From: Ulva prolifera
Lineage: Eukaryota; Chlorophyta; Ulvophyceae; Ulvales; Ulvaceae
Reading direction: 5' to 3'
Assembly (NCBI GenBank): GCA_023078555.1
Contig: CM041202.1
Coordinates: forward strand, 1,360,022-1,424,021
Length of the DNA stretch: 64,000 bases
The notes under the pieces are model-generated. The model was not told the DNA's origin, made no database searches, and was given only the letters and a program-made list of their open reading frames with translations. This document shows positions 3,800 to 63,823 of the stretch, piece after piece (positions within the stretch are counted from its first letter, which is position 1; every line of letters starts with the position of its first letter). Both the position numbers and the translations under genes were made by a program.

Positions 3800-6700
3800 A
3801 TGAACCAGGCAAGGATGATGTATCTGCTGGTGGCAGGCGCCATCGGCCTTGCCACTGTCCAGGCACAGCCGGGTAAGGCACACTCTGCCAACTGCTCTTT
3901 TGAACCTCCCCTGAATTTAGGCAGTGGCGTTCGGAAGAGAATATGCATTAGATCATGCGTGCATGTGCCCGCCTCCCTGCCAGGTGCCTGGTGCCTGGTG
4001 CATGTGCAGCAAGTGACCTCCCGCACCGGGCTGGCTCTTCCAATGCTGTGCCTGTTTCAAGAACACACTGCAATGCATGTGGGGAACTGTAAATGGATTC
4101 TGGGTTCTTCACGATGTATGGTGTACTGAGTTCGTCATGCTCTCACCCCTCTGTGTGTTCTGGACCCCAGCGCTTGAGACCCCCGGCGTGCGATCGATGA
4201 TATTTACGCGAGGCTTTGAGCCTCCCTGAGTGAACTGTCAGCTCTCTTGCTCTGAGCCCTCCCTACAGGAAGTCTGCTGCTCTGAGCCTCAAGTGGAGTG
4301 CAGGTGGAGCGTGCAACGGCGTGGTCGGCAGCCTCCTCGATCAATGTGACGTTGACAACAGCTGCTTCAATCTGGAGTCAGGGCAGATGGTGCTCCAGCC
4401 AGGCACACCTCTGGGTGATTGGACGATCGGCATCAAGCAGTGCATCAAGGTGTGCTTCTCCTGACCGACGCCGGCTGTCTGCAGTCGTCGCCGGGTCCCT
4501 GCTCTGCTGGTAGGTCTGACAGGTTTTGGAGGTGCATGTGTTGTGGTCGCTGTGAGCGCTTTCTGCCTGCGCTGGTTGCGGCTGTGCCATGCATATGGGT
4601 GCGTTGGTCAGGGTCGATGGCTGTGTTCATGTGATGCGCGTTGTTTCATAATTAGCAGCGCTGCTGGCCTCGCTGCCTGTATCCGTGTGAAACATCACTG
4701 CTCCGCCTGTAGGGGTCCACGATCTCCTTCATCACCTGGGGTCCGTCTGTAGACGGCAGGTGCGATGTCGATCAAGTCGTCTGCGACAGCAAGCGTGAGA
4801 ACATCACCGCAGGCGACACCTTCGCCAGCGCCACCGTCCCGTACGGCTCATGCACGGGCGAACCAATCTGTGTGTACGTGCACGACGGCCAACTGAGCAA
4901 GGGCAAGGGTGGCGTCCCTGAGTCAGACATCCCTGGCTCGTGCTTCTCGTCAGACAATCAGCTCTGTGCGATGTGTGGGCCCTTCCTAGTCACGGTGCGC
5001 TGCCGCCTGGGGATGTGATCGAGTGGTGCATGCTGGAGGGCAGACTGCCAAGCCACTGGAAACATCGCATGGCCTGCGACGGTCCCGTGCTGCTGCAATC
5101 ATATCACTGGGTCCAGGCTCTCACAGTATATGCACGTATGCCCACGCATCAGTGGCTGTGGGGCTGCATCTCTGGATATGTCCTATCACACCACCAGTTT
5201 GCGGCAGATTAACATATCTGTACAATGTTGAACCTGCTCAGGCCAACGTCCTGCATGTCTGCGCATGTTTTTGGGTACTCGTTGGCACACAATCGTACAG
5301 TATGCTCGCACAAGCGTTGGGCATCGGTGTGTTCAAAGTGGTGGGCGTAACAGCACCACGCTGCTGCAGCCTACGCTTCCCGACAACTCCTTCTGCGACG
5401 ATGGCTTCACCTGCACCGAGGAGACCTGCCAGGGTGGCGTGTGCATGCCGAGCAACATTCCAGATGCCTGTAACGATAACACCACATGCACTGACGACAT
5501 CTGTGTCGCTGGCGGGAATGATCCCACTATCACCGATGCTGGGCCGGCAGGATCAGGTTGCGGCTACAAGGACAATGGTAGCTGCGAGTGCGTTTCGGCG
5601 AATTATGTGGTGGGCACGCATGAGATTCTGGCAAACGCCCTTGCTTTGTCGGATTTGATCTACTATGACTTCCAGCACTATGATGAGCATGTGGATTCAA
5701 TTTGAGTAGCCAGGCCCTGCCAGTGCTAGTCAGCACCACTGACACATGCCCGTCCATGGACATGGTGGACTTGACACCGAGCTCGTACCACAGCCCTACC
5801 CGCAATACCTGCCTTAGAATTCTAATGAATCGAGCCCCATGTTGTGTATGTTGGTATGCATGGTTACATACGTCCTGAGCCCGGAATCATCACGAGGCTC
5901 CATATTTGCATATTTAACATGACTATCGACCAGGTGGCTGTGTGCAGCGATGGTTTCACGTGCACGGCGGACCTGTGCGTGGCTCTTCCGAGCGTCGGCA
6001 CACCCGCTGGCAACCCTGAGCCGGACGCCAACGGCTGCTTCTTTGACAAGGACGGAGGAATTCCCTGCACTGAGCCACGCGAATGCGCCGTGGTCGAGTG
6101 TGTAGCGGACGCCTCGATGACCCCCGGGACCGGCTGTGTGTACACCGAGAAGGACTCGGGGAACTACTGCAAGTGCGTCGTGCCTGCTGTTGCCACTTGT
6201 TGTGCCGCCTTCCGTAAGCATGCATGTTGGCGTGATCATGAGAAGCGTTGCTGCGTATACGATCAGTGGGTGTGCCGCTGCTTTCTCAACCCCTGCACCA
6301 TGCTGCACCTTTGCTGTTGAAGTCCCGTGAGTAGATGTTGCCGTGCACATGTAGTGTCTGCGAAGATCGCAGGACAGCGGCCGTGGGCTGTACACTTTGC
6401 AGGAGGTCAAATCTGCTATGTGCAATGTGCAGAGAGACCTTCACCGACACTACCTGCCTGGTGGACGGCAATAGGCCAACACTGCTATGTGCGCTAGTGT
6501 GTAGCCAGTTCCTGTCGCGTGCGCATCAACTTGCAAGCAACGGGCCATCAACCCCAGGCACGGTGACCCTGCTGTACTTTGCGATCCCCCATACGTTTCG
6601 GCTGTGCTGCCTGGTTACACACAGACGCTAACTACTGCTCGAGTAGCACTATGCATCCCGAACTCGAGTCGTCATTTGACAATCAAATCTCTTGAAATTG

Positions 6701-9700
6701 ACAGTATTAGCTCAATTGCAACACCGTCCTCTGGCGGTGTTCGGTCCTCATCTTTGTGAAGCGGTTGCGCAGGAACAAGTATGGTGCATGCGCACAGGCA
6801 GTGTGTGTCGACGCCGGCGCGCCTGGGTATGGAGAGGAGACAATCGGGGATGATGGCTGCAGCATTGACCCTGCTGCTGATGCATTCTGTGATGATGCAA
6901 AAACTTGCACAGAGGATATCTGCTTGGCTGGCAGGACAGCTTTGAGTCTTGGAATCAATGACATGGATGTGAAAGCCAATGGCTGTGGGTACAAGACGAC
7001 GCCAGACGCGTGCAAGTGCGCCCCCCTCATCTGCGCTGAGCTGCTGTGCCATACGAGCCATGACTGTCGGCTTGAATCGGCGTCCCCTCCCAATTGTAAG
7101 GCCATCTGAACGTAAGTGTGCCACCGCCAGCAACCTGCTTTGATATGGACCAGCAGGCAACACAACTTCCACAGCCTCTTGTCCTTGCATCACAGCCATG
7201 AAATTGCTTACGCACGCCACCAGCGTATATATCTCAATGCTTTCTGCATCCGCCAGGTGCTGATCATTATTGACAGTCTAAATTCGAAATACGTAAATCT
7301 GAATACGTACGTAAATATGTAAATCTGAATTCACTGATCAATCTTGTGATCATTTTGAGTGGCAGCTGTGCAATTCGGGCTTTGAGCACGCCCAATGCAT
7401 CGAGGCTGTGTTTGTCCTTGCAGTGACGGCTTCTCATGCTCTGATGACCTGTGTGTTGCGCTGCCCAGCGTGGCAGCCACTGCGCCAGCCGGCGCAGCAG
7501 GCGGTGAGACCACCGGCTGCTTCATCAACAAGGTGGACACAAAATGTAATACACCAAACTGCGCGACCGCAGTGTGTGTTGCTGCCATGCCTTTTGTTGG
7601 CGACGGCTGCGAGTATACAGAGAAAGAAAATTTCTGCAAGTGTGGCTCTCTTCCAAGCACATGAGTCGTGTGACATGTCCATTCAACATCCACCGGGCCC
7701 GTCTTCGAATGCTGTGTTCCCCGACATGTCGTGCTGAGGATGTGCACTTCGTTGTACATCCGAGGCAGGCGGAGCGTTGTTTCTTTAGTTTGATGACCCA
7801 CCATTGTGCCTCTGCTGCTGCATTCAGCTATGGGGACCATGTGTTCTCAGCCCATACAGTTTCCCAACTGCACACCCCACGAAGAAGCCTCTGCGGCTAC
7901 CCGACTTGGTGACCTTGACTCCAACTTTAAGATGTCTGCAGGGCTAATTACGGTGGGTGTGTCAATCCAGTTTGTGCCGCCGCCGACGGCATAATGTACA
8001 CAGACGGCGCCGTCGACTTTGATGGGTGTAACATCCCAACAGAAACGACTGCAAATGAGGCATGTGTTGAACCTCTAGTACCGGATCTCGACTGCGGATC
8101 GTACCAATGCGATCGTACGCCTGGCGTGACTGGCACCGGTTGTGATGTGAATGCCGGACCTGACTTCAATGCGGGCTGCGACGACGGCAAAGCCTGCCAG
8201 ACTCCCACCTGCAGTGCGACGGGAGTGTGCTCGTACCCACCGAACCCAGATTTTTGCCCGTGCGCTCCTCATGCCGTGTGTCCTCCTGCTCTGCGACTGG
8301 GGCCTCGTGATGCAACGCCGTATGCTGCATGCATACATCCCTACAAGGCCACCTGCTACGCTGTCTTCCATGGTGCATGCATGCACATCACTTGATGGAA
8401 GGCTCTTTAGACCTGGAGGAGAGGGCGCACTGCACAGCGCAGGGAGCTCAGAGGAGCCAGCAACCTGTGAGCTTTAACCCTTTGTGGACATGCACATGCA
8501 TGCGCCATCACATGCATGTAGTCTCGTGAGTTCAATGTGACACCGCTTTGCAGTGCCAAGTACAATGAATGTGCCAACCCGGCCTGTGACCCGACGGGCG
8601 TTTCGCCAGATCCCGATGGCTGCACCATCGACCCCGCTACAACAGCAAACGCGTACTGCACACCTGCCGACCTTCAGTGTGGAGATGCTGCGTGTGACAT
8701 CAGCCCCCTGGCCCAGCCAGGCACAGGGACTGGACCACTTGGCGATGGGTGCTCGCTGACCCCGGACTCCAACGACTGTGACGACGGCAAAGCCTGCCAG
8801 ACTCCCACCTGCAGTGTGACGGGAGTGTGCTCGTACCCAACGAACCCAGATTTTTGCCCGTGCGCTCCTCATGCCGTGTGTCCTCCTGCTCTGCGACTGG
8901 GGCCTCGTGATGCAACGCCGTATGCTGCATGCATACATCCCTACAAGGCCACCTGCTACGCTGTCTTCCATGGTGCATGCATGCACATCACTTGATGGAA
9001 GGCTCTTTTGACCTGGAGGAGGGGGCGCACTGCACAGCGCAGGGAGCTCAGAGGAGCCAGCAACCTGTGAGCTTTAACCCTTCGTGGACATGCACATGCA
9101 TGCGCCATCACATGCATGTAGTCTCGTGAGTTCAATGTGACACCGCTTTGCAGTGCCAAGTACAATGCATGTGCCAACCCGGCCTGTGACCCGGCGGGCT
9201 TTTCGCCAGATCTCGATGGCTGCACCATCGACCCCGCTACAACAGCAAACGCGTACTGCACACCTGCCGACCTTCAGTGTGGAGATGCTGCGTGTGATAT
9301 CAGCCTGGTAGCTATGCTGTTGCAAAGTGGGGCACAGACTCTGCCCCTGAAAGGCAAACACGTGAACATGCTGACACCGACCTGTGCTGCTGCAGCGCGA
9401 ACAATCCCTTTGGCGCATGCGTGACATCAGTGTGTGCTCCCGGGACAGCAAATGTTGACGACAACGGCTGTGCTCCTGGCGATGAGGTGCTGAATGCATG
9501 TGGTCTTGCCAATGGTGAGGACTGTGGAAGTTCCACGTGCGATACAGCCACAGGCAACTGCGAGAAGAGCAGTGTAGAGGTGGGAGCGCAGTGCTCCGGT
9601 TGCGACGTGTGTGAAGAAAACGTCTGCACAAGTGCGTCCTAAACATCCGCTACCTCGGCATCGTGCACACTGCCAGCCTCGTCACCTCATTAACTTTTGT

Positions 9701-12204
9701 GCCTTACACACGACCTCTGTTTGAACAGAGATCGCTGTTGTCATCAGAGTCTCTGCAGAAACTGATCCGTCCCGCATATGCATGGCTGTGCATTCCAAAG
9801 CCTCACTACTCTGTTGCAGGCTCTTGCGATCCGAGTTTGTGCCAGACATGCAACTTCAACGTCGACCCTCCTCAGTGCGAAGGTGTGCCCCCTCCTCACA
9901 CTCGGTCCCAACGCTGTCGTCGATGCTGGCAGCCGGTGGTGGTGGAGTCACTGGGCCTGCTCGTCTTAGAAGCAGCGTCGCAGCTGGCCGTGCATGTGAA
10001 TGCCTGAAGCACTGTTACAGCAGTAACAGCTGACGTTTCGGGAACGTTTGTCCATCATGGCGTGACCAGCCTGTTCAGAGCCTTCACTCATGCGCTGCTG
10101 GCACAGCAATGCAGTAGAACCATCGTGCACGGCATACATATGAAGGATTGTCATCTTTTTACCTTTTGACAGTGTGGCTACCGGCTTTTACCCATCTGAG
10201 GCACAAAGCAGAAGATCTTTAGCAGCCTGTTTCTTCTGGGGGAGACTGCGAACTGATTCTTGCACATTAACTGGTCACAGAATCGCCATCAAGCCATTGA
10301 ACTCCGGTCCTTGTGCCCACATGTGCAGATCCTGAATTTCCACACATCAGTACATCACTCCTGCGTGTGAAAAGCAGCTTTGTAATCCTCAAGATATGAT
10401 GATGGTTGTACGACTCTGCAAAGCGGTGCCCAGCAGTGTTGCTAGGTCATGATCCCGGAGCATGCGATGCCTGTTCATGTACATCCAAGCTGACAGATAC
10501 AAGCTCTCACTCACAAATGGCAGGACCGTTTGCAGCTATCGACCCGGTGCCAGCAGAATGCCAAGTTGGACCACCTGTGTGCCCTTCAGCATGCAGTAGC
10601 TGCCAGACATGTAAGACGATCAACGGGCAGCCGACTTGCGTCGGTGCGCTCCCCGCAATTACATATCCTTTCTGTTTCTGACTTCGTACGTTTTTTACAT
10701 CGGCATGTACCCGCTGTTGCCAATGCCATCTGCAACCCCTGAGTCCCCCATCTATACTCATGTGTCGGGGTTGAGATGGCCCAACCACCACCTGCATCCT
10801 CCATCTAGATAGCTATGAGGATTTCGAATTCTCAAGTCTAGGAGAATTGAGTTTCTCCCAATGTGCAGGGTCCCTGTACATAGAGTACCTATATATATGG
10901 GATCCTGTGCAGTGTTTGGATCGGGTCACTTCCTTTGCAGTGCCACGTAGAAGCCCGTGCGGGGTCCTTGTCCTGTGCGTGCATGGCAGCTGATGAGGCG
11001 TCTTAAGATATATACAGTTTGATAGTGTGATGCTGCTGGTGTGGCCTTTGTCCAGTCTTCAGGCATGCCCCTGGATGGTATATGACAACGTTGGCTTCGT
11101 AGTCCGTGTGCTGGGCATGCACTGTAGCACACACATGTTGTTTGTGCATGCATATGATCATCTTCGGAATATCGGGGCTCTCGTCCAGTGAGTCTCCAAT
11201 CCTGTGCCCTGGTGTGGGCTGCATCTACATACTTGTGTGTGTGTTTGTTTTGGGCTGGTGTTCGCAGCTCTGGCCAGAGCTGCAACCACCTGACAGGTGC
11301 TGCCTAGCTTGCAAACAGTGTCCGATTTGCAGACGACACGTATGATATGATCTGCTACAAGTGCGGGACAGACATCACATGTGCGATCGATGCTCCCGAT
11401 GGCATAGACACTGCCGCGATCCAGGCCCAATTCTCAACAGACTGCACAGCGGCTGGCGGCTCTACATGCCACAACCAGAAGTGCACTACAGCAAACCTCT
11501 TCATTTACGAGTCGTCATGCTTCCCTAATCCCGGCGATCCTGGTACACTTGGTGCGCTCTGTTGAATCTCTCCGTATTGTAGGTGCACACTATGAATTTG
11601 TTGCTCAAAGATGCAGACTGCGCAATGAAATAACCAAAGACGGGTTCGTGAATGTGAAGTGCGCACTTGGTTGCAGGTGGGGTTTGTCCTTGCATCAAGC
11701 AAGCGGTGTCCAACTATGGGGGCTACAGAGTATGCACCCACTTCAACCCCTGTTCAGCTTTGTCAACACATTTTGGCTGTGTCCTGTATGCATACACTAT
11801 GAAGTGCTCGTTGTTACCTCAGGCACTGTGCGATGCTTCTGCTCGCACGCTGACAACAAGAGCATGCGGTTGAAGTGACACATGAAGTGAACGACACAAT
11901 AGAAGCGGCATGTCTTGAACTTGTATGTGTGTGTGCACACTCTGTTGTTGCAACACTTGTTCACCCATCCAGGCACGCAGTGCAACACTCGCGGTGAAGG
12001 CATAAGATACGCATGCTTGTGCAGGTCACGATTGGTGGTGCCACGTGCAGCACCGTCTCCATCACTTGTGACAATTCTTTGACAATCAAGTGTGAGGCGG
12101 GGCAGCTTGGCTGCCCACCAGCAAATGTCTTTGGTGCTAGTGGAACATGCCCGGCTCCGGCTGTAGGTGTCGCTGAATGTGGCGCAGGGGTCATGATCCC
12201 TTAG
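3800..12204 (+). CDS. Gene A: secreted modular cysteine-rich protein, 15 exons, 961 aa
   Basis: Function unknown; the product should be secreted. Exons: 3800-3872, 4304-4449, 4713-4994, 5370-5587, 5948-6172, 6773-7015, 7424-7639, 7942-8259, 8554-8859, 9396-9631, 9820-9882, 10536-10643, 11333-11551, 11677-11729, 12025-12204. All phases agree and the joined frame is open to TAG. Exon 1 codes a signal peptide (MNQARMMYLLVAGAIGLATV..QA). Exons 2-3 (residues about 25-167) form the domain shared by all four genes (CDVDNSCFNLESG, then CTGEPICVY and GPFLVT). Exons 4-10 (about 168-754) are seven cysteine-rich modules; several contain C-D-D/G-x-x-C-T-x-D/E-x-C, resembling CTDC-type repeats. Exons 11-12 are small CxxC modules. 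The last three exons code CYKCGTDITC, CPC...SNYGGY and VTIGGATC. Nine of 14 donors are GTGCG. The start was chosen by homology with gene B. An extra acceptor-bearing exon at 9154 is excluded because it lacks a usable donor. Exon edges come from homology and phase, not transcripts. Confidence 0.85.
8180..9301 (+). repeat. 600-bp tandem duplication across exons 8-10 of gene A
   Basis: Positions 8180-8701 and 8780-9301 are nearly identical, offset by exactly 600 bases and separated by 78 unique bases. Each copy holds the C-terminal half of one module exon (from DDGKACQTPTC), a whole intron, and the N-terminal half of the next module exon (AKYN(E/A)CANPAC..GDAACDIS). The boundaries fall inside exons, so exon 9 is a chimera. 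This is the signature of unequal crossing over between neighbouring homologous exons rather than retroposition. Confidence 0.9.
9154..9307 (+). pseudogene. Truncated exon 10 of gene A
   Basis: The acceptor (CTTTGCAG) and the first half of a module exon are intact, nearly identical to exon 9, but homology ends after GDAACDIS. The only nearby GT (GTAGCT after 9307) would leave phase 0, whereas the next exon (9396) needs phase 2. Skipping this exon from 8859 to 9396 keeps the frame. It is therefore read as a dead or skipped exon left by the 600-bp duplication and a following deletion. Confidence 0.65.
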
Positions 12205-14174: not shown

Positions 14175-14500
14175 CGCTGACCGGAACGTACGCGTGTGCT
14201 CTTTCCATAGCGCGAGACCAGGCCAAGCAGTCTCCGCAGATGAAGAACACTGGAAAGCCATTGCAAGCTGTTGCGAAAGCTACAGCGCACATGCAGGTCC
14301 GGCAGACCGAGCTTGGAAATGTGTTGACACATTATGTTGGAGAGGAGTGAGCACAGCAGGATTTAAATGCGACGCACATATGCGTCGAGGATTCGCCTTA
14401 TAGGCTGGTCTGGTGCAACGCTGGATTGTCTGGGTAAGATATGGACCTCATTCGTAATTTGGATCTGGCCTGCTAATGGTCGGTGTGGCACCTTCCATGG

Positions 14501-15940
14501 CAGCGCCTGTGTGCCCAGTCAGCACCTTCGTGGAATGGTCGGTGCCTCACCAACCATTCTGTATGCGAGCAATGCATGTGCCCCTTCCAGTCCGCTCTGG
14601 GGCAGCGCCCGTGTGCCCAGTCAGCACCTTCGTGGAATGGTCGGTGCCTCACCAACCATTCTGTATGCGCCCAATGCATGTGCCCCTTCCAGGGCGGCGC
14701 CCGTGTGCCCAGTCAGCACCTTCGTGGAATGGTCGGTGCCTCACCAACCATTCTGTATGCGCCCAATGCATGTGCCCCTTCCAGGGCGGCGCCCGTGTGC
14801 CCAGTCAGCACCTTCGTGGAATGATCGGTGCCAGAGTTGCATTAATACGCGTATCTTTCGATTTCGGTACGTTTAATACGCGTATTTTATTCCAACGTAC
14901 TTTATCAGCGTATAGTACGCGCGTACGTGTCGGACTTGCGCGTTTTGAGAGAGCCTAGAGCTCTGCACTGTGGTGCACCTCTAGCCACAAGGCCAAAGGA
15001 GGTTTTTAACATCCCTTGCATTGCATGATGAACCTGAGTAACCTGATAAACTAATTGACTGTGAGTATATTGTACTGTTCTCTGCAATAGTGTGCCTGAG
15101 CATAGATGACAGTGACCGTTGCACTACCAAGTCTGGCCATCACCGGCTTGGCGCCTAAGGCGCCAAGCCAGTGATGTAGCCTATACAGCGTACTTTTCAA
15201 CCCCCCAAGATTGGAGCCAACGTACCATACGCGTATTTTTACTTAACGTACTTTATCACGAAACGTACTAATGCAACTCTGATCGGTGCCTCACCAACCA
15301 TTCTGTATGCGCCCAATGCATGTGCCCCTTCCAGTCCGCTCTGGGGCAGCGCCCGTGTGCCCAGTCAGCACCTTCGTGGAATGGTCGGTGCCTCACCAAC
15401 CATTCTGTATGCGCCCAATGCATGTGCCCCTTCCAGTCCGCTCTGGGGCAGCGCCCGTGTGCCCAGTCAGCACCTTCGTGGAATGGTCGGTGCCTCACCA
15501 ACCATTCTGTATGCGACCAATGCATGTGCCCCTTCCAGGGCAGCGCCCGTGTGCCCAGTCAGCACCTTCGTGGAATGGTCGGTGCCTCACCAACCATTCT
15601 GTATGCGCCCAATGCATGTGCCCCTTCCAGGGCGGCGCCCGTGTGCCCAGTCAGCACCTTCGTGGAATGGTCGGTGCCTCACCAACCATTCTGTATGCGA
15701 GCAATGCATGTGCCCCTTCCAGTCCGCTCTGGGGCAGCGCCCGTGTGCCCAGTCAGCACCTTCGTGGAATGGTCGGTGCCTCACCAACCATTCTGTATGC
15801 GACCAATGCATGTGCCCCTTCCAGGGCAGCGCCCGTGTGCCCAGTCAGCACCTTCGTGGAATGGTCGGTGCCTCACCAACCATTCTGTATGCGAGCAATG
15901 CATGTGCCCCTTCCAGGGCAGCGCCCGTGTGCCCAGTCAG
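14501..15940 (+). repeat. Satellite array of 92/102-bp units interrupted by an inserted element
   Basis: Units start at 14501, 14603, 14695, 14787, 15347, 15449, 15541, 15633, 15735, 15827 and 15919 (last one partial). The core is GTGTGCCCAGTCAGCACC..TCGGTGCCTCACCAACC..ATGCATGTGCCCCTTCCAG; the 102-bp form carries an extra TCCGCTCTGG. Units are almost identical, so the array is young. Neither 92 nor 102 keeps a simple shared phase across units, and the long open frames across the array are by-products of a low-stop repeat, not a supported protein. Confidence 0.9.
14832..15281. mobile_element. hAT-like non-autonomous element (450 bp) in the satellite array
   Basis: The ends are inverted repeats: left CAGAGTTGCATTAATACG, right the reverse complement of CAGAGTTGCATTAGTACG. 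The 8-bp target duplication ATCGGTGC lies at 14824-14831 and 15282-15289. Removing the element plus one ATCGGTGC restores a normal 102-bp satellite unit (14787 to 15347 minus 458). CAG-starting ends with an 8-bp duplication are the hAT superfamily pattern. The interior has TACGCGTATT-rich subterminal repeats and a TTGGCGCC..GGCGCCAA hairpin but no transposase, so it must be mobilised in trans. Confidence 0.9.
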
Positions 15941-16571: not shown

Positions 16572-16587
16572 ACTCTGCCACGCGATC

Positions 16588-16637: not shown

Positions 16638-19600
16638 ATCCGCCGACACCCCTCCGCCGACACCCCTTCCCCGCCTCTTCCCCCGCCTCCTGGCCTCGCA
16701 GGCGCAGCAGCCAAGAAGTCTGCTACCCGCCAGCCACATCGCCAAGCCGCAGCAGCCGCCGGCGCACCCCCCCCTGCGCAGGCCAGTGGGGGCACGGGCG
16801 GCAACGCCAAGCAGCAACGTGCCCGGCGGGGAGGTAAGAAGAAAGGCAAGGGACGGGGAGCAGGTAGCCAGTCGCAGCGGGCGGGCCCCCGCAGACAGGC
16901 CGGGCTCCGTGCGGCTGCATCTGCCCCGCCAGTGCAGCGGGCCAACGCGGCCCCACGGCTGCGCCTGCCGCAGCATGTCCCCCCAGCCGCCCGGCTGGGG
17001 TGGGCCGAGTCGTGCACAAGGGTGTGGGAGCTGGTGGCCGACGCGTGCACGCATGCGCGCGGCGACAGCGCGCGAGAGGAGGTTGTTGCCGCTTTCGAGG
17101 AGATCATGCGCCTGCCCATGCGCCTACTAGCGTACAGCAGGGGGCGGCGCTCTGGGAAAGCGGCGGCAGGGCGGTGCCGCGACTACGCCCTCGGGCTGCC
17201 TGTGGAGATGTGGGAGGACACGCCGCCCGGCCGCTGGCCCGGGAGGCGCAAAGCTCCCATGTCTGCAGATCAGCTGCGGGCGCAAAACATCGACAGATGC
17301 TTTCGCATCAAGCGCTCCATTCACAAAGCTGGCCGCGGATTGCAGGATGGCAAGCCCGCAGATGCACGGTCCCCGGAGGTCCAAGCCGGTCTGCGCGCAT
17401 TGTTCCCGCCAGCAGATCCGCCGGTCCCTCTGGAGCCGAACCCGGATGTCCCCGCTCTGTGCCTGGCACGGGAGGCGCTGGTGGCGGCGGTGGCCGCCGT
17501 GAGCGCACACCATCGAGGGTCGTCGGCCGGCCCGTCCGGCTGGACGTTCGAGATGATCTGCGCAGCATGCCAATCCTCGGACGCAGCCACCGACGCGCTG
17601 CTGGCGGTCGTCAACCACATGTTGTCCGGCATGCTGCCACGGGAGACGTTCCTGCTGGACGGGCTCCTCATCGGCCTGGAGAAGCCGGACGGTGGCACGC
17701 GGCCGATCGCGGTGGGGGAGACCTGGTACCGGTTCGCGGCAGTGTGCGCCCTGCGCGAGTACGGCCGCGGCATCGGAGAGAGCCTGGCGCCGCTGCAGGT
17801 CGGCGTTGGCACACGGGGCGGGACCGAGACAGTCGTGCACGGCCTGTCTTCTGCTCTGGCCGAGGGCGCTTCGGTGTTCTCGGTCGACATGAAGAACGCC
17901 TTCAACTATATCGACCGCGCGGCCATGTTCGCTGCCGTGAAGGAGCGTGCCCCGGCGCTGCTGCCCTTCACGCAGTGGGCGTACGGCGCCGGGACCCGGC
18001 TGCACATCGCGGGCGCTCCGGAGGACGTCGAGCCGGTCCTCTGCCAACGTGGCGTCCGCCAAGGTGACCCCCTGGGCCCCCTCCTGTTTGCGTTGACCCT
18101 GCAGCCTGTCTTGGAGCGCGTCGACGCGTCAGGCGTCGGCGCACCTGTGGTGGCGTACCTGGACGACATCAGCATTGCGGGCGACCTCGCGGCTGGAGCT
18201 GCCGTGTTCCGGCGGCTGTGCGTGGAAGCTGACGGCGTGCGCAGCATTGGGCTTGAGGTGAACCCTGCAAAATGCGGCGTCCACAGCGCCGACGCCGAGG
18301 CGGCGGCCGCCGTGGCCGCAGAGCTCGGCATTCAGGATACTCACGCGGGCTTCAAGGCTGTCGACACGCCGCTGGGCACCCCGGAGTACGTCGCCGAGGT
18401 GCTGGACACGCGGGCGCGTGAGGTCGAGGGCCTCGTCGAGACCCTCGTGCGCATCCCGCTCTTAGTGCAGGCGCAGTTCCTCCTGTTGCGTGTGTCTTTG
18501 AGTGTGCGCATGACGCACCTGATGCGGACGGTGCCGTATGCCCTGCTCGAGCCGCACATGCGCAGGGCGGAGGCCGCTGTGTGGCGCGGTGCCGCCGCAA
18601 TCCTGTGCCTGCCGCCGGAGGTTGCGGAGGCTGCTGCCGCGTCTGACAACTCGGCCACTGACGCTGAGACGCGGCGGCTTGCTTACCGGCTGATGTCCCC
18701 TGTCAGGCATGGCGGGCTCGGACTGACGATGCTGGTGGACAGCGTCGCTGACGCGGCTTTCCTGTCGGGGGCCGGCACGGCCAAGCGCAACCTCGCCGGC
18801 TGCCCGGACCTGCTCCGCCCCCTCTGCGGCCACAGCCGGGGCAGTCTGTTGCAGCGCTGGCAGGGCTTGTTCGACGAGCTGCATGAGCTGCTGGGGTTGG
18901 AGGCGGAGGCCCGTGACCTGCCGGACGAGTTCGTCTCGGGCAAGCTGCTAGCGGCCCAGCGCGAGGTGGGGCGCGCGGTCGCGGAACATGCGGCCTCACT
19001 CGTGCTACAGGGCATCGACCTCGACACGCCGGCCGGCAGGCGGGAAGCGGCGTGGCTCAGGAGCGCTTCGGGGGGGCCTGCAGGCGCCTTCCTCTCCGCT
19101 CTGCCGGGCGGCGTTCTCACCATGGGCGACGACATGTTTGTCCTGGCGGTGTGGCACCGCCTGCGATTCCGCGTCCCGACGGACGTCCCCCCCCCTCCGT
19201 GCAAATGCAGTGCAGGTGTTGCCGCCGAACCAGACCACGCCATGGTCTGCAAGAAGGTGGCAAAGGAGACCCAGATGCGCCATGATAACCTGGCTCGTGC
19301 CTTGCGCCTGGTCGCCTCTTACGCCGGACTGCAGTCTGCCCTGGAGCCGCTCTACCGTGCCCTCGCGAGGGGCGCGGGTGTTGAGCTGAATCGCTACGGG
19401 GACGTCGTCGTGGACATGCCGCGCCTGGAGATGGCGGCCGTGGACGTCGTGGTCACGCATGCGCCATCGGCCTCATACGTGGCCGCTGCGGCGCGGGAGA
19501 CGGGTGCGACGGCGGAGCGGGCGGAGCGGGCGGACAGGAAGCGGGGCCACTTCCGGCGGGACGTGCCTGACCATGCCGCGTTCCGGTTTGTTCCGTTTGC

Positions 19601-19841
19601 GGTCGAATCGTGTGGCTTCATGGGCAAGGCTGCCGTGAGGTTCGTCGGTCAGTTGGGGGATGTGGCCGCTGCCAGTGGGCGCATCTCCAAAGGCGCGTTT
19701 GTCCAGTGTGCGCTGCGGGTGTTGTCGGTGTCATTGCAGCGCGGCAATGCGGATATGTATCGGAAGTCTGGGCTTGTCATCTCTCGGGAGCAAGGGTTGC
19801 GATATGATGCGGGCTTGGAGGACGCGATCCTGCCGGACTGA
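16638..19841 (+). CDS. Non-LTR retrotransposon protein: reverse transcriptase and restriction-like endonuclease
   Basis: It copies its RNA into DNA at a nicked target. The frame is open from just after an in-frame TAG (16635) to TGA at 19841, about 1067 codons. It has no ATG near its beginning (first in-frame ATG near 17105), so it is either 5'-truncated or starts differently. Order: a K/R-rich nucleic-acid-binding region (16740-16900); reverse transcriptase with GGTRPIAVGETW (about 17690), FSVDMKNAFNYID with the first catalytic Asp (about 17880), RQGDPLGPLLFALTLQPVL (about 18058) and YLDD (18157-18168); a C-x-C-x(9)-H-x(3)-C knuckle (CKCSAG..DHAMVC, about 19200); then RHDNLARAL, DVVVTHAP, an E/K-rich helix and FVPFAVESCGFMGKA, the layout of restriction-like endonuclease (R2/CRE-type) elements. 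Both YLDD and the endonuclease motifs look intact. High GC and no introns set it apart from genes A-D. Confidence 0.85.
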   Translation: MRRHPSADTPSPPLPPPPGLAGAAAKKSATRQPHRQAAAAAGAPPPAQASGGTGGNAKQQRARRGGKKKGKGRGAGSQSQRAGPRRQAGLRAAASAPPVQRANAAPRLRLPQHVPPAARLGWAESCTRVWELVADACTHARGDSAREEVVAAFEEIMRLPMRLLAYSRGRRSGKAAAGRCRDYALGLPVEMWEDTPPGRWPGRRKAPMSADQLRAQNIDRCFRIKRSIHKAGRGLQDGKPADARSPEVQAGLRALFPPADPPVPLEPNPDVPALCLAREALVAAVAAVSAHHRGSSAGPSGWTFEMICAACQSSDAATDALLAVVNHMLSGMLPRETFLLDGLLIGLEKPDGGTRPIAVGETWYRFAAVCALREYGRGIGESLAPLQVGVGTRGGTETVVHGLSSALAEGASVFSVDMKNAFNYIDRAAMFAAVKERAPALLPFTQWAYGAGTRLHIAGAPEDVEPVLCQRGVRQGDPLGPLLFALTLQPVLERVDASGVGAPVVAYLDDISIAGDLAAGAAVFRRLCVEADGVRSIGLEVNPAKCGVHSADAEAAAAVAAELGIQDTHAGFKAVDTPLGTPEYVAEVLDTRAREVEGLVETLVRIPLLVQAQFLLLRVSLSVRMTHLMRTVPYALLEPHMRRAEAAVWRGAAAILCLPPEVAEAAAASDNSATDAETRRLAYRLMSPVRHGGLGLTMLVDSVADAAFLSGAGTAKRNLAGCPDLLRPLCGHSRGSLLQRWQGLFDELHELLGLEAEARDLPDEFVSGKLLAAQREVGRAVAEHAASLVLQGIDLDTPAGRREAAWLRSASGGPAGAFLSALPGGVLTMGDDMFVLAVWHRLRFRVPTDVPPPPCKCSAGVAAEPDHAMVCKKVAKETQMRHDNLARALRLVASYAGLQSALEPLYRALARGAGVELNRYGDVVVDMPRLEMAAVDVVVTHAPSASYVAAAARETGATAERAERADRKRGHFRRDVPDHAAFRFVPFAVESCGFMGKAAVRFVGQLGDVAAASGRISKGAFVQCALRVLSVSLQRGNADMYRKSGLVISREQGLRYDAGLEDAILPD

Positions 19842-28493: not shown

Positions 28494-41707
<13,214 letters not shown>

Positions 41708-49100: not shown

Positions 49101-52100
49101 GCACGCCCATCTGCGTGTACCTGCGCGACGGCGCCTTCCGCAAGGGCGACCACGGCACCCCCCAGCCCGGGATCCCCGAGATGTGCTACTCCAAAGACGA
49201 GCACCTCTGCAAGACGTGCGGGCCGTATTTGGTCACGGTGCGCCGTACCTCCAGCGTTTGCCGCGTGCATTGAATAAGCATCGATAGCAAATTGTCCCAA
49301 CCCGTCCTGCCCTGGAATGTGGACTGCTTCAAGCAAGACGTTCTCGTGCAATCTGCGGCATCACATATCGCAGTGAATGCCACCAGTGAGGAAAGTACTT
49401 GACAGTGTACATGGATAGCAACGTCAATTCCTGGCTGGTTGTGTATGTAGCCGTATAGTTGCGCCAGCATCAGCTCGGGTGTGCAGCTATGTGCATTAGG
49501 GCCTGGCTTCGGTGTGGCCTTCAAGGAAATATAACAGAATTCTGTTCTATGAGCCCTTGCTTTATTAAGATCTTGCCCAGTGTCTCCATGAGGACATTGA
49601 TTCCCTTTGCCAGTGGCAAGGCTGAAAAGAGAAGCGGCGTGCTTAAGTCGGCATCAAACTTCCGCACCGTGAGCCCGATGACGGTGGTCCTATGGAAGAT
49701 GTTTGTTGCTGCAGCCCAAGCTTCCAAAGGATGCGGAGTGCACACCTGAGGCCACCATAGCTGCTCATGAATGCGCAACGGGCACATGTGCCAAGGATGG
49801 CGAGTGCTCTGTGCTGCTCCTGGATGATAACCTATGCGATACGACCTGCGAGGAGTGCAAGTTCAACACCATGGGCGTGGCACAGTGCATACGTGCGTTC
49901 TCAATGCGGCGCTGGCCCTGTGCTACCAAGTTTTTTACTGCTGTGGTGGTGTCCGTGCTGTTGTCGCTGGCCTCGCTGTGTTGAGCTGCGCGCACCTCGC
50001 AGAGATGTTTCGGGTGAAACAGGCCCTGGTTCTGGCAGATGCATGATACATCTGCTCATGGTAGGGCATTTCTCATTCAACCTTCAGCTCGCTTCTTGTA
50101 AGACGTGACTTGTGTGCAGCCAAGGCCGACGCCCCCCCTACCTGTGACGATCCGGTCTGCACTGAGCCGGAGTGCGATACGACCTGCGAGGAGTGCAAGT
50201 TCAACACCATGGGCGTGGCACAGTGCATACGTGCGTTCTCAATGCGGCGCTGGCCCTGTGCTACCAATTTTTTAACTGCTGTGGTGGTGTCCGTGCTGTT
50301 GTCGCTGGCCTCGCTGTGTTGAGCTGCGCGCACCTCGCAGAGATGTTTCGGGTGAAACAGGCCCTGGTTCTGGCTGATGCATGATACATCTGCTCATGGT
50401 AGGGCATTTCACATTCAACCTTCAGCTCGCTTCTTGTAAGACGTGACTTGTGTGCAGCCAAGGCCGACGCCCCCCCTACCTGTGACGATCCGGTCTGCAC
50501 TGAGCCGGAGTGCGATACGACCTGCGAGGAGTGCAAGTTCAACACCATGGGCGTGGCACAGTGCATACGTGCGTTCTCAATGCGGCGCTGGCCCTGTGCT
50601 ACCAATTTTTTTACTGCTGTGGTGGTGTCCGTGCTGTTGTCGCTGGCCTCGCTGTGTTGAGCTGCGCGCACCTCGCAGAGATGTTTCGGGTGAAACAGGC
50701 CCTGGTTCTGGCTGATGCATGATACATCTGCTCATGGTAGGGCATTTCACATTCAACCTTCAGCTCGCTTCTTGTGAGACGTGACTTGTGTGCAGCGAAG
50801 GCCGACGCCCCCCCTACCTGTGACGATCCGGTCTGCACTGAGCCGGAGTGCGATACGACCTGCGAGGAGTGCAAGTTCAACATCATGGGCGTGGCACAGT
50901 GCATACGTGCGTTCTCAATGCGGCGCTGGCCCTGTGCTACCAAGTTTTTTACTGCTGTGGTGGTGTCCGTGCTGTTGTCGCTGGCCTCGCTGTGTTGAGC
51001 TGCGCGCACCTCGCAGAGATGTTTCGGGTGAAACAGGCCCTGGTTCTGGCTGATGCATGATACATCTGCTCATGGTAGGGCATTTCACATTCAACCTTCA
51101 GCTCGCTTCTTGTGAGACGTGACTTGTGTGCAGCCAAGGCCGACGCCCCCCCTACCTGTGACGATCCGGTCTGCACTGAGCCGGAGTGCGATACGACCTG
51201 CGAGGAGTGCAAGTTCAACACCATGGGCGTGGCACAGTGCATACGTGCGTTCTCAATGCGGCGCTGGCCCTGTGCTACCAATTTTTTTACTGCTGTGGTG
51301 GTGTCCGTGCTGTTGTCGCTGGCCTCGCTGTGCATGAACATGTCTATGTTGAGCAACACTGAGCAACTGCGGTGTTTCAGGCCGTTTGTGGCCCCATGCT
51401 TGACCATACCCTCACACCCTGCTCATATCCGTCCACAGTACAAGAGCTTTCAGCAGTGCTGTATCTCACAGATGCAAGGGGTGTGTGCAGCTAAGCCAGA
51501 CGCGCCGCTGAGCTGCAAAGACGGACCAATATGCAACCCACCATGCCAGGGCTGCACGACTTGTCGGCTCAATGGCGAAGACTTGGTGTGCATGGGTGTG
51601 GCTCACGCACTTAACCCTGATTCATCATGACTTGCGTCCTTACCGCAACTTTGCAAACTCTGCATTTGCAGCAGCAGCCATGCGCGTGCACACCCTCTCA
51701 CGCACACCCACTGGTACACATGTGTGTCTGTCATGTGTGTCTGTGAGAAGTTGCTGTGTAGTCCAGTGCACTGTGTGCATGGCATGCATGTGCATGCATA
51801 GGTCTGATTAGGTCTGTGCAGAGAGTCATGGCAGTTGGGTATTTTATTGCATATAGGTAGACTGTAGCAGGTGAACACTATCGTGTTCACTGAGCTCCCG
51901 CTGTCATGACAGTGTCTCATGAGGACCAAGTTACAGAGGCAGGTAGCACCGCAGAAGACGTACACACACATGTCCGTGTCTTTGTGTGTGCTTTCAGCGT
52001 TAGGCAGCTGCCACATTGAGCAAGCATATGTGTGGCAGAAAGGCATTCCTCTCCTTTGCTATCAGTGCACAGCTAGAGTCGGCTTTATACATGTAGCTTG

Positions 52101-53373
52101 TACACTTTGGAATTGCAGGGTCAGGCACTGCTAGCAATCTAATCTTTCATGCCATCATTTGCCAATACCAGTGTGCCATGCTGGTCAAAGCTGTTTTCTG
52201 TGTGCAGACGATGATCCCATGACTTATGATATGGTGTGCTACAAGTGCGGATTGAGCATCAACTGTGCGCTCAAGGCAGATGCTATGAAGGTCGACATTG
52301 GGAGTATCCAAACCGCGTTCGATTCGCAATGTTTACCCAACAGCGCACAGGGGAATCAGGATCAGATATTTTCATGCGCCCAACAGCGCTGTGAAGGGAC
52401 TCCTGCCATTTACACAACAGATTGCTTCCCTTACTCGGGCCCTCCTGGCATGCTCCGTGCGCCACCCCTCTCGTGCCTCTCAGGGGCAGGTCCCCACAGA
52501 ATCTTTACTGTGCTACATGCATCTGACAGAGATGCACACCTATCGTCCTGTTCACATTTATGGCCATGCCTCACAAGGCGTCTTGGCCTGGCCACAAGAC
52601 GATATACACTGCGCTGAGCAGACTTTGTATGAAGGGTGTCAGCCCTTGAACCCGACATACCCTGCTCCGTGCTTGCAGAATAGACCGTGTTCATGACGTA
52701 TTGCCACAACTTCTTAATGAAAGACTCTTTATCTGATCGGATCAGATTTTGATGGTCGGGAAGAACAGCTGGAATGCTTGGGTTGTTCGATTTCTTCTTT
52801 GCTGAATTCTGCTGTCGTGTGCAGAAGGCGACTGTCCGTGCAGCAGTAGCAGAATCTCCAACTTTGCCGAATACACGGTATGATCATATCGATATCTCTG
52901 CCCCGCAGCATCTGATTAATCTGAATGTCTTCATTTCTGTAATTGTGGTGATAGAAACGCGAGGGGCTATGCGGCAAAGACGAGCCACTTGCAATTGCCA
53001 TTATTGCTTCCATTGCCTTTATTGCTTTCATACAAACAAAACTGATGTTGATTGAAGCACTACTAGTAGTGACCAGTTCGAGTGCACTGGAGTACTCCTG
53101 CCTTGCTCTACCCCTACCAGTGACACTGGAAGTGTATTGCTCGCTATCCTGGACGGTTTCAGTGGATGAGACACTCCATGTTTCTTGTGTGTACAGGTCG
53201 TCGTGAGTGGTGGGACTGACTGCCCTGCCACGTTGGACATCACTGATTGTACAGAAGCGGACAAGTGTGATGCAGAAAGCAACCCACCCTGTTCTATAGG
53301 TTCTGAAAACACTGACTCCACTGATGACTGCATTGTCCCTGCGCCTGGTACCTGTGACGCCACCATGTCATGA
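46127..53373 (+). CDS. Gene C: secreted cysteine-rich protein with amplified short exon, 13 exons, 719 aa
   Basis: Same family as A and B. Exons: 46127-46241, 46783-47169, 48011-48177, 48953-49237, 49715-49892, 50120-50230, 50458-50568, 50796-50906, 51134-51244, 51491-51595, 52208-52456, 52825-52877, 53197-53373. The joined frame is open with matching phases. Exon 1 codes MVSRVTSAASVLVVVIGTLC, a signal peptide, with a second ATG 16 codons upstream at 46127; either start fits. Exon 2 is an extra phase-1 module absent from A and B (CGEKVCHPNGVCEWSGC..CETCKWGKC). Exons 3-4 are the shared N-terminal domain (ICVYLRDG, GPYLVT). The whole phase-2 module block of A and B is missing; exon 5 begins PKLPKDAEC like exon 4 of A but ends CDTTCEECKFN like a short module. 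Exons 6-9 are four near-identical copies of that short module. Exons 11-13 are the shared C-terminus (CYKCGLSINC, GDCPC, VVVSGGTDC). A TGTAA lies about 270 bases after the stop. Confidence 0.83.
49835..51332 (+). repeat. 338-bp exon-intron unit, about 4.4 tandem copies
   Basis: The period is exactly 338 bases (for example exons at 50120, 50458, 50796 and 51134). Each unit contains a 111-base exon coding KADAPPTCDDPVC..CDTTCEEC..GVAQC plus its downstream intron, including a conserved GTGCGTTCTC donor and TGTGTGCAG acceptor. The copies differ at only a few bases (ACC/ATC in the third exon, CCAAGG/CGAAGG at an acceptor). The first copy is partial and forms the 3' half of exon 5. Confidence 0.95.
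51920..51957 (-). mobile_element. Short family-3-like fragment in intron 10 of gene C
   Basis: AAGTTACAGAGGCAGGTAGCACCGCA-like sequence matches the terminal part of family 3 (GGCAGGTAGCACCGCA) with an internal gap. Only about 35 bases are recognisable. Confidence 0.4.
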
Positions 53374-55924: not shown

Positions 55925-56073
55925 AGTTGATGTTCGTCTGACAGCCATGCTCCGCACTGGACCGATGAGATGAATCGTTAGCCACTGGCGTGAACATTCA
56001 CCTGGGGATCTGGCATATGGTATCATTTCTTTGGAACTTGAAGGTGCATGTACATGTTGAGGCCTCCGGGTAT

Positions 56074-56095
56074 CTAGGGACCAGCTGGTCCCTAG
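56074..56095. repeat. 22-bp perfect palindrome present only in copy 2
   Basis: The sequence reads CTAGGGACCAG followed by its exact reverse complement. Copy 1 (near 41857) has only the first CTAGGGACCAG, so the second arm arose, or was lost, after the duplication. Confidence 0.85.
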
Positions 56096-57765: not shown

Positions 57766-58044
57766 AGGGGGTCATGCACTCCCGCTACGAGGTGGTCCCA
57801 GTGAGGGCGCGCGAAATCGCGTTTGGGCGGGAAAAGCTCAGCGAATGCCACCGTTTGGGGAGAACCGCCATTATTCGCCAAAAGGGGGGCCTGGGGTGGG
57901 GAGAGTCCCCACAGCCGAGATCGCTCACGCAGAGTCCCCAAACATTGATCACAATATTCGAAGTTGTCCCCAATTACGAAAATTCGGTCGTTTTGATGCG
58001 CGCCCACACTGGGACCACTTCGTAGCGGGAGTGCATGACCCCCT
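57766..58044. mobile_element. 279-bp inverted-repeat element with 8-bp target duplication
   Basis: The ends are 38-base inverted repeats with one mismatch, starting AGGGGGTCATGCACTCCCGC. GCGCCACT flanks it at 57758-57765 and 58045-58052. Copy 1 of the duplication has the single uninterrupted GCGCCACT (near 43460), which proves insertion. An 8-bp duplication fits hAT or P-type elements; the AGGGGG start is not a standard hAT end. There is no coding capacity for a transposase. Confidence 0.92.
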
Positions 58045-60703: not shown

Positions 60704-63700
60704 ATGGCTCGACCCTCACTGTCTGCAACATGTAGGCAGCTTGGCTGGAAGATGGTGTCTCGAGTGACATCTGCGGCCTCGGTGCTAGTGGTCGTCATCG
60801 GCACCCTCTGCGCCGTTGGTGCGGATCCGCTGCCTACGTCCACCCTTTTGCCCTGCGCCCTCCCTCTGTCGTTGGCATGTCCAACCCCTGCCCACATGTT
60901 GCGCGGAATGCATGGCCATATGGATGCTGTAGATCTACCACTGGCAGTATACTATAGTGCTGCCTTGTGCACAGTTGATCTGCCACATGCATGCAAGTGG
61001 GGCAACCCACGTACGAGCTGTCTCAGCACTACTGCGAGTAGCAGCACTGTGTACTCGGGCCCACGAGTTGCACAGATCCATCACTGCTGTGGCCCCCACA
61101 TGCACGTGCATGTTTTCCACACGTCTCCACACAGAGGAACAACTTAAATGAGCTCAAGCCGTTGCACGGCAGAAGACAACAGTAGACTTTGTACTACTAG
61201 TGCTATGTGTGTGAGACAACATGATGGTTCCGGATGATTGGGCCTGCCAGCAGCAGCCTGCCACCGCTGCGTCCTTGCAGTCGCAGGCGTGAGGCCTACA
61301 TCGCCAGCTCGCCAGTGTCAATCGATGCCTTGATGTTGTAATTGTGAGCACTGCTGCAGGTGACGCGTCGGCCGCGTTTGCCTCGCGCTCCCACGACTAC
61401 CCGAGCGCCTGGAGAGACCTGCCCAGGCCTGACCCCCACTACAAGCCGCACCCCGACCACGAGCGCCCCTGCGGCGAGAAGGTCTGCCACCCGAACGGCG
61501 TGTGCGAGTGGTCAGGCTGCGGGGACTGCGAGACGTGCAAGTGGGGCAAGTGCGTGGAGAAGGAGTGCCCCCCATGCCACACGTGCGACGGCGGGGAGTG
61601 CACACCCGACTGCGACGAAGGTGAGTGCGTGCGTGACCGCTGGCACGGGTACACGTGCAAGCCGGAGACTCCGGATGAGAAGGAGTGCAAGCACGACTGG
61701 CACTGCCACAAGCCCGGCGAGAAGTGCGTGGACGGCGTGTGTGTCGGTGCGCCCCTGCTGCGTGCTGCGTGCTGCGCTCCACGGTCGTGTCTGAATCCAT
61801 GATCAAGAGGTGATCGACCATGTGTGCAACCGGGGTTGGGGGTTCTGCAGCGTGCCCAATGCATTGAGTGCGCCGGCCGGCTGCCCTCCGCCAGAGTTGG
61901 GTCGCTCAGCAGCAATTCCAGGGCTGCCATCCAGAAAGTGGACCTGCATATTCGGAATGGTTCTATGTAATTGGGCCCGATGACCCAACACTGCCCTCCG
62001 CAGAGTGTGTGGCGCTGCAGTCTTGCGGCCATGCATGCATGCGGAATCTCTCGTGTGACCACCCCTGACTGTACACGTGATAATCTGCTCCGTGAGGCAT
62101 GCATGCGCAGCGAGATGCTTGTGTGCTCGTGTCAGTGGCTGCTTCTGTTGACTTGCTGCCCCTGTCGTTTGTGTCAGACGCTGTGGGGCATGCCGCATGC
62201 GCATGACCGGGCAACCGGATGCCGTACGTGCTGAGGCCGTGGTGCCTGCTGTGGCGCTATATGGCGTGGCAGCGTGTGCATCTGCATTGCAACCGGCGGC
62301 ATATGCATGCCGGGTGTGCATGTAGCGACTGGCCTCATGTGCGCCGCGGATCGCTGTACACCGTCTTGCGCTGTGTCCATCCGGGTGCAGCCCATCCACT
62401 AGTAGCAACAATCCTGCATTGCGAAGCTTCTGTATATGTGCTGTCAATCGGTATGTGCCGCAACGCGGAGACAGCGTTCGTGATGATGTGATCGCATGTT
62501 GCAGCAGCGCGTGGCAGGGCATGTGTGTATTGCTGCAGCTTGCCGCTGTGATGCCTGACAGCGAGAGCACTGCTGTCCCCCCAGGTGACATGACCTGCGA
62601 GGGCAAGCCAGGCAAAGCCCTCGAAGAGGACGGGAGCTGCCCGGAGGCCGAGTGCTTCAACGACGCACACCTCGGCCAAGTGGTACTGGCCAGCGGGTCG
62701 CTAACGACCGGAGCGCACTGGACCGTCGGTATCAAGCAGTGCCTGCAGAAGGTGTGCTGCTCTTGCCCCTCAAAAACAATCTACTGCTGGGCCTGCCCCC
62801 GCCTCTTGGCTCCCGATTTCCTGAGGGTCAAGGTCCTGGCACACGGGGCTGTAATCATGCATATGAAAATACCATGTGCCACTTACTATAGTATGACATC
62901 TTATTTTTCATGTTTGTTCATGTTTCCATGTATTGTTATTACATATGATATGTGACAACGTGGCATGCGGACCCCCGTACGCAGGCTGGGCTTCAGAGCA
63001 AATGCGCATGCATGTGCCGGGATCCTCTCAGCACCGATTTATTGATTTTTGTTTCCAGCAGAGCTCCGAGGTGATTGTTATACGGGCTTGTTCAGCACAA
63101 GGTTTACTCGTATCTGACTTGTGTTCTTAGGCCGCACCATTTCATATGCTTTGCAGCAACGTTCAGGACAGACCGACGCGTGTGTATGAGAATGTGCCTT
63201 GCACGTACCAAGGAGGAAGAGGCGCACTCCTGTAGCATCCCCCTGCCATGCTCGACCCGCCTGCAGATTTATTCGTATGTGCAACACTGTCGCCACAACA
63301 CTGCCACAACACTGCACATGTACGGCCGTGCCACACCGACTGTCATCTAGATGCGCTTGTGTCCTGCGACGCCTGGAAACAACTGAGTCGCCGCGAGCTC
63401 GCTGCCGCTCGATCGCCACCAGCACCGGCGTGCGCAGCGTTGTGGTCGTGACTTGACACCCCATGCGGCTGCCACAGCATCACTGATGTGGCACATCATC
63501 GTGGTGCCATCGTAATCAGGACTGGCGCGCTCGTGCAGGCCGGCAAGATCGGAACAATCACCTGGGCCTACGCGGAGGATGGCATGTGCCCCGATACAGT
63601 GGACTGCGCAGGCAACAAGGCCAAGAAGGTGGAATTCCACGATACATTCATCGAAGACCTGACAGTCCCGGCTGGCATGTGCTCTGGCACGCCCATCTGC

Positions 63701-63823
63701 GTGTACCTGCGCGACGGCGCCTTCCGCAAGGGCGACCACGGCACCCCCCAGCCCGGGATCCCCGAGATGTGCTACTCCAAAGACGAGCACCTCTGCAAGA
63801 CGTGCGGGCCGTATTTGGTCACG
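60704..63823 (+). CDS. Gene D: 5' part of a duplicate of gene C (continues beyond the window)
   Basis: Exons 60704-60818, 61360-61746, 62585-62751 and 63539-63823 correspond one to one with exons 1-4 of gene C, with the same phases and splice sites. I find four base differences in the 954 coding bases (two in exon 1, one each in exons 2 and 3) and all are synonymous, while introns and flanks carry many substitutions and indels. The coding sequence therefore appears to be under constraint. Signal peptide, extra CGEKVCHPNGVC module and shared N-terminal domain are all present. The 338-bp exon array should follow beyond position 64000. Confidence 0.85.

Follow-up and report, generated by a model that had tools for sequence, protein, structure and literature searches.

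A tandem cluster of modular cysteine-rich genes in Ulva prolifera, candidates for structural proteins of the extracellular matrix

Ulva is a model for multicellularity in seaweeds, and U. prolifera forms green tides. In a 64,000-nucleotide stretch of the U. prolifera genome (the window; contig C7, positions 1360022-1424021) we identified three complete genes, A, B and C, and the first exons of a fourth, D, all of which belong to one family of modular cysteine-rich proteins. These genes probably encode secreted, disulfide-built structural proteins of the Ulva extracellular matrix or cell wall. The reading is based on gene models joined from 46 exons, on the conservation of these exons between paralogues, on the cysteine content of the modules and on the relationship of two domains to proline-rich genes elsewhere in the genome. 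Positions are those of the window unless a contig is named, and the genome searches cover the 44 contigs of the 88.9-Mb assembly.

Gene models and splice sites

To find exons, we compared stop-to-stop segments among themselves and against diverged paralogues from other parts of C7. The protein-conserved segments coincide with the exons of an initial annotation of this DNA, which had reported 46 exons whose phases all agree. The models bear this out, with 15 exons in A, 18 in B and 13 in C, and D adds four in the window. After joining, the reading frames of A, B and C each start with ATG, are open throughout and end with a stop. Homology, splice motifs and phases were used for all three models:

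3800-12204, forward strand: gene A, 961 amino acids, exons 3800-3872, 4304-4449, 4713-4994, 5370-5587, 5948-6172, 6773-7015, 7424-7639, 7942-8259, 8554-8859, 9396-9631, 9820-9882, 10536-10643, 11333-11551, 11677-11729, 12025-12204
28494-41707, forward strand: gene B, 1119 amino acids, exons 28494-28566, 29089-29246, 29497-29781, 30156-30373, 30736-30954, 31319-31651, 31926-32222, 32447-32740, 33315-33617, 33959-34200, 34452-34514, 35003-35098, 36063-36179, 39080-39190, 39958-40065, 40499-40738, 41141-41193, 41558-41707
46127-53373, forward strand: gene C, 719 amino acids, exons 46127-46241, 46783-47169, 48011-48177, 48953-49237, 49715-49892, 50120-50230, 50458-50568, 50796-50906, 51134-51244, 51491-51595, 52208-52456, 52825-52877, 53197-53373
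60704-67961, forward strand: gene D, closely matching C and extending past the window, 13 exons, nine of them outside; in the window 60704-60818, 61360-61746, 62585-62751, 63539-63823

Position 63823, where the initial annotation ended, is the end of exon 4 of D. Full models were made for five genes (A to D and the further copy E described below). Two further paralogues, G and H, were examined at the level of single exons, copy F was read in part, and four other copies were read around the N-terminal domain only, with loci L022 and L023 left out.

The splice model for this genome uses the motif GTGYG...TGCAG. A first pass with a generic donor motif gave poorer sites, after which the donor motif was changed to GTGYG and some guessed exon edges were shifted on the same genes. 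Among the 43 introns of A to C, 28 start with GTGCG and nine with GTGTG, and 36 end with TGCAG; these frequencies are partly by construction, because motif and edges were tuned on the genes in which they were counted. Last exons were located through the motif V(T/V)(V/I)xGG. Some edges were set by hand to suit phase or motif, namely the donor of B exon 8 (a weak GTACG), the end of A exon 14, the last exons, and C exon 1, which was picked by eye from an ATG and a donor. The two TAG codons in the B match of the N-terminal domain search sit before the modelled exon start at 29497, i.e., inside an intron.

Phase agreement was tested with splice sites chosen blind to the phase rule near the borders of protein-conserved segments, by motif and distance only, over 39 of the 43 junctions (last exons and the first exon of C were left out). 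With the tuned motif, 34 of the 39 junctions agree where 13 are expected (p ~5e-12), and the blind choice is the modelled splice site in 77 of 84 cases. The result with first-pass edges was again 34 of 39. With the generic, untuned motif, 27 of 39 agree (p ~5e-6), and the modelled site was chosen in 64 of 84 cases.

Exons are conserved as protein. Comparison of C with D gave differences at 4 of 2160 exon sites and 59 of 5068 intron sites (p ~6e-6). The ratio of nonsynonymous to synonymous substitution rates (dN/dS) between A and B, pooled over seven colinear exons, is 0.38, with single-exon values of 0.18 to 0.58 for six of them; the signal exon, of 24 residues, stands at 1.70. Of 16 exon pairs, 14 stay under 0.6 and one has no defined value; this short signal exon alone exceeds 1. 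The pooled value shows that A and B are under purifying selection.

Protein architecture

The two-exon N-terminal domain, the variable number of cysteine modules and the C-terminal trio of exons described by the initial annotation were all recovered in the models. The features below are all on the forward strand.

3800-3872 (+): signal-peptide-like exon of A, MNQARMMYLLVAGAIGLATVQA, by eye; a similar one is present in B
28494-28566 (+): signal-peptide-like exon of B, by eye
46127-46241 (+): signal-peptide-like exon of C, unlike that of A and B, by eye
46783-47169 (+): extra exon of C (exon 2), which encodes 18 cysteines and 10 histidines and is related to the cysteine modules in proline-rich genes on contig C1
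4304-4994 (+): N-terminal domain of A, two exons (SCFN..., ICVYVHDG, GPFLVT)
29089-29781 (+): N-terminal domain of B, two exons
48011-49237 (+): N-terminal domain of C, two exons
5370-10643 (+): cysteine-module exons 4-12 of A, with 9, 8, 8, 8, 12, 12, 11, 4 and 6 cysteines
30156-40065 (+): cysteine-module exons 4-15 of B, with 9, 8, 12, 12, 12, 12, 10, 4, 6, 6, 6 and 6 cysteines
49715-51595 (+): cysteine-module exons 5-10 of C, with 8, 6, 6, 6, 6 and 6 cysteines
11333-12204 (+): C-terminal trio of A (CYKCG, CPC..SN..GY and VTIGG exons)
40499-41707 (+): C-terminal trio of B
52208-53373 (+): C-terminal trio of C

We infer secretion from the signal-peptide-like N-termini, read by eye. A shared signal peptide had been proposed for all four genes; the signal exons of A and B are indeed alike, but those of C and D are of another kind, and the extra exon of 129 residues lies between them and the N-terminal domain. 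The N-terminal domain is about 145 residues long. No hydrophobic tail was seen by eye at the C-termini of A, B and C.

Cysteine numbers are even in 24 of the 27 module exons (the exceptions are A4, A10 and B4), although the exons are related and hence not independent. Even, patterned cysteine modules, one per exon, place the proteins with the disulfide-rich modular type, and the cysteines would be paired in disulfides. Phase-2 introns flank exons 5-9 in both A and B (8 or 12 cysteines), and phase-1 introns flank the exons with 4 and 6 cysteines. Because the flanking introns share one phase, module exons can be added without loss of frame.

Exon and gene duplication

Modules multiply through tandem duplication of whole exon-intron units, and this has happened recently in C and in the paralogue G:

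49835-51332 (+): tandem repeat of a 338-bp exon-intron unit, 4.4 copies with 98% matches, containing the 6-cysteine exons of C
L041, 4574-7153: tandem repeat of a 381-bp exon-intron unit in paralogue G, 6.8 copies with 99% matches

Whole genes are also duplicated. The cluster is in tandem, as first described, but is not limited to four genes: the C-type unit recurs at 14.6-kb intervals, giving D, E and F, with 98.6% likeness of this unit between C and D and 99.96% between D and E. Gene E is open and encodes the same protein as C. The N-terminal domain occurs at least 14 times in the genome. Of these copies, 13 are on C7 and one is on C3; an additional weak match on C2 (expect value, E, 0.27) was not counted. 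The CYKCG domain is present at nine places, eight of them on C7.

Close copies of the N-terminal domain were also noted at C7:6498756-6499058 and C3:12377848-12378024, each about 20 kb from a contig end, and further close copies at C7:929440 and C7:6419391. Subtelomeric duplication of the copies near the ends is possible.

Searches for known families

The initial annotation called this an apparently undescribed family, and the searches agree, where undescribed means absent from Pfam, NCBIfam, the PDB, IMG/VR, GTDB and the literature searched. The genes may already carry automatic annotations with some unspecific name. No Pfam family was matched by joined A, B or C at E up to 10, or by seven members of the N-terminal domain. 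Gene A without its signal, the only protein submitted to these two collections, had no match in NCBIfam (E up to 1) or in the PDB (E up to 0.1). A profile of the N-terminal domain had no match in the PDB at E up to 10, and a profile of the CYKCG domain had one chance-level match (E 0.51). The CYKCG exon of C has a sub-cutoff match to a zinc ribbon, at 14.6 bits against a cut-off of 29. A pattern-plus-tblastn scan of IMG/VR and GTDB contigs identified no relatives of the N-terminal domain, and relatives of the CYKCG domain were not identified in IMG/VR contigs either. A phage match at E 0.3 in the search for relatives was set aside as chance. The top titles and abstract openings returned by literature searches contain no account of such a family.

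Link to proline-rich genes on C1

A second cluster, on C1 at 11.09-11.43 Mb (L057-L061), contains proline-rich genes with cysteine modules resembling CTDC-type repeats. The five C1 open frames that were read are 13-42% proline, with SP, TP and PPPP repeats next to these modules. Such repeats at high proline content are a hallmark of hydroxyproline-rich wall proteins, and the genes of the C1 cluster apparently encode wall hydroxyproline-rich glycoproteins. A Pfam scan of one C1 frame gave no match.

Exon 2 of C is related to modules of these genes: none of 1000 cysteine-fixed shuffles reached the observed score for two of the C1 proteins, and three of 1000 did so for a third. Module A4 compared with the same three C1 modules gave 0, 4 and 3 of 1000 shuffles. 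A C1 gene also contains the CYKCG domain; in both comparisons made, none of 1000 shuffles reached the score. The gene at C1:11159372 (L033) resembles the family in having a CYKCG domain and a CTDC-like module, but no match to the N-terminal domain is listed there, and no place on C1 is among the listed matches of the genome searches with that domain. A module related to C exon 2 is common to both groups, whereas their proline contents differ, 13-42% in the five C1 frames and 8-9% in A to C. Paralogue G carries a (PDPPV)n spacer.

Proposed function and alternatives

If A to D are structural matrix proteins, they would be exported to the cell surface and oxidised in the secretory pathway. Each would consist of a secretion signal, the N-terminal domain, a variable string of modules with mostly 4, 6, 8 or 12 cysteines, and the three-exon C-terminal region. 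The modules may fold as separate disulfide-locked beads, giving a stiff, protease-resistant rod whose two conserved end regions would bind wall glycans or partner proteins. Module number would shift as exon-intron units are duplicated in tandem with the frame kept. Even cysteine counts, symmetric introns, recent duplication of modules and C-termini with no anchor suit a secreted, disulfide-bonded string of beads. Location in the wall or matrix is suggested by the relationship to the C1 genes.

Several observations weigh against this interpretation. Exon 7 of D has one base more than its counterparts in C and E (near C7 position 1425065) and, because of this extra base, the frame as read is broken after residue 421, so that D is, on its sequence, either frame-shifted or misassembled. 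An in-frame TAG is present in exon-like stretches of both G and H. Total cysteine in B is odd, at 129. Some module comparisons are not significant, including B8 (12 cysteines) with a C1 module, for which 642 of 1000 shuffles reach the score, and the within-family pairs A5-B8 (850 of 1000), C6-B15 (126 of 1000) and A4-A5 (12 of 1000). Proline makes up just 7.9% of A, 8.2% of B and 9.0% of C, with a single SPPPP in exon 15 of B. Thus, A to C are not themselves hydroxyproline-rich proteins, and they do not combine high proline with the SP, TP and AP or SPPPP repeats of extensins and arabinogalactan proteins. AlphaFold2 predictions for single exons from three-row alignments had mean predicted local distance difference test scores (pLDDT) of 35.8, for a model that covered one exon of the N-terminal domain only, and 45.4; because both are low, no fold supports binding. 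The contrast between exons and introns of A and B is uneven, because intron 4 is more alike than the exons and introns 2 and 3: identity is 83-84% in introns 2 and 3, about 88% in pooled exons and 96.9% in intron 4 (5588-5947 in A, 30374-30735 in B). Local gene conversion at intron 4 is possible.

The genes could also have a more specific role. The adhesive glycoprotein of Ulva spores and rhizoid cells is discussed in reviews (PMC11966768, PMC4347444), in passages that name no gene, and this family might supply it, with cysteine modules that cure via disulfides after release. Signal-like N-termini, high cysteine content, modular construction and expansion of the family in an Ulva genome would all fit. 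We regard this as unlikely, since the models have few N-glycosylation sequons (three in A, two in B, none in C) and nothing connects the genes with spores.

A somewhat more doubtful reading takes the N-terminal domain for a distant descendant of the pherophorin domain, and the family then for the Ulva branch of the volvocine matrix family. The landmarks CF, KI/IS, G..IC and LC..C follow a similar order when compared by eye with a pherophorin-type string, and the best local hhalign alignment lands on G..ICV. However, DUF3707 of Pfam was not matched in A to C or in the seven members of the N-terminal domain, although the same tool scores a pherophorin-type test string at 152.8 bits. The hhalign score was not above shuffles, being reached by 76 of 200 cysteine-fixed and 72 of 200 full shuffles; in global mode, with the wrong ends aligned, 17 of 150 and 12 of 150 reached it. 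Little weight can be put on this test, as its template was one string (DUF3707 according to Pfam) and the alignment of the N-terminal domain has an effective number of sequences (Neff) of 1.95. A genome search with PF12499 gave zero matches, but no control genome gave a signal, hence absence is unproven by this search. When a pherophorin chain was sought in the PDB with the test string, five chance-level matches were returned (E 0.87-1.1) and no such chain was identified.

A role in defence or in interaction with microbes, as secreted protease inhibitors or lectins whose copy and module numbers diversify under conflict, is about equally doubtful. The fast turnover of copies and exons, the position of copies close to two contig ends (about 20 kb) and the broken copies are what such conflict might produce. 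The A-B dN/dS reported above, with only the signal exon exceeding 1, argues against it, as does the lack of any inhibitor or lectin family among matches in Pfam (A to C) and NCBIfam (A).

The sporulation inhibitor SI-1 is an even less probable identity. SI-1 is described in passages of PMC4306291 and PMC4347444 as a cell-wall glycoprotein that is partly released, with activity from U. mutabilis and U. linza, and the family fits a secreted wall protein in a related Ulva. Any wall protein fits equally, however, and 14 copies exceed the need of a single regulator.

Finally, it is scarcely credible that the joined proteins are artificial, put together from decayed repeats or from frames that are open by chance: some copies are broken and C to F are highly alike as DNA, but the exons are protein-conserved between divergent paralogues with dN/dS below 1, phases agree far above chance even with an untuned motif, and introns of C and D diverge faster than exons.

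Secreted structural proteins of the Ulva matrix or wall remain the preferred interpretation. A broader proposal is that the N-terminal and CYKCG domains are new ulvophyte extracellular domains, and that the family is one of several matrix systems which arose in Ulva, independently of volvocine pherophorins, to serve its multicellular body, and which include wall glycoproteins known by activity (the spore adhesive or SI-1). This is tentative, and we consider it rather unlikely. The models nevertheless make the spore adhesive and SI-1 testable through peptide matching. They also provide complete genes for a candidate matrix family with two conserved end regions, and a clear example of how the modules of a protein increase in number when exon-intron units of matching phase are duplicated in tandem.

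Other features of the window and genome

The following were also noted in the window:

16638-19841: open frame of 1067 amino acids with an RVT_1 domain (E 4.7e-11), between A and B; by this domain, a retroelement inside the cluster
36628-38699: (GT)n microsatellite of 2.07 kb, in the B intron between exons 13 and 14
14488-15940: two blocks of a minisatellite whose repeat unit is 92 bp, downstream of A

An Rfam scan of the window gave no family at the gathering threshold. A link to the mating locus was considered and rejected: RWP-RK is a mating-locus marker, and both of its matches are on C2 and C3, with none on C7. Elsewhere in the genome there are two rhodopsin-family matches, one of which (L034, C1:10205734-10206258) is a bacteriorhodopsin-family gene that resembles a green-algal channelrhodopsin, also in its tail. 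We also identified a nuclear plastocyanin gene on C6 (two exons, with a GTAAG/CAG intron joined by eye), the mature protein of which is identical to PDB 7PCY at 98 of 98 residues. PDB 7PCY is the plastocyanin of Enteromorpha prolifera, a species today called Ulva prolifera, and the identity therefore places the genome in U. prolifera or in very close kin.

Comparison with known matrix proteins

Wall and matrix genes named in passages of the U. compressa genome paper (PMC9266709) include cellulose synthases, extensins, an expansin and collagen-, elastin- and fibronectin-like genes, none of which resembles this family.

Dicty_CTDC repeats (PF00526) are found in Dictyostelium matrix proteins of the EcmA/EcmB type. 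A resemblance of some modules to these repeats had been noted in the initial annotation, and by eye it holds: both are short cysteine repeats in strings, and Ulva modules such as CDDGFTCTEETCQGGVC are similar. The likeness is weak, however, as PF00526 had no match in joined A to C at E up to 10 (HMMER filters may miss weak short repeats). In the genome this profile had eight matches, none above the 27-bit cut-off, with the best, at 21.1 bits, on C1; most of these sub-cutoff matches are at related C1 loci, including L033 at 14 bits. The Ulva family differs from the Dictyostelium proteins in its conserved end regions and in its construction from one exon per module.

Pherophorins (PF12499) are cysteine-bearing matrix proteins of volvocine green algae with a role in Volvox, according to passages of PMC10762512. 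The Ulva N-terminal domain has a loosely similar order of landmarks, seen by eye, but no profile similarity to pherophorins was detected, and A to C differ in having no long polyproline spacer. Modular cysteine-rich matrix proteins are already known as a kind, and it is the two conserved end regions and the architecture of the Ulva family that appear new.

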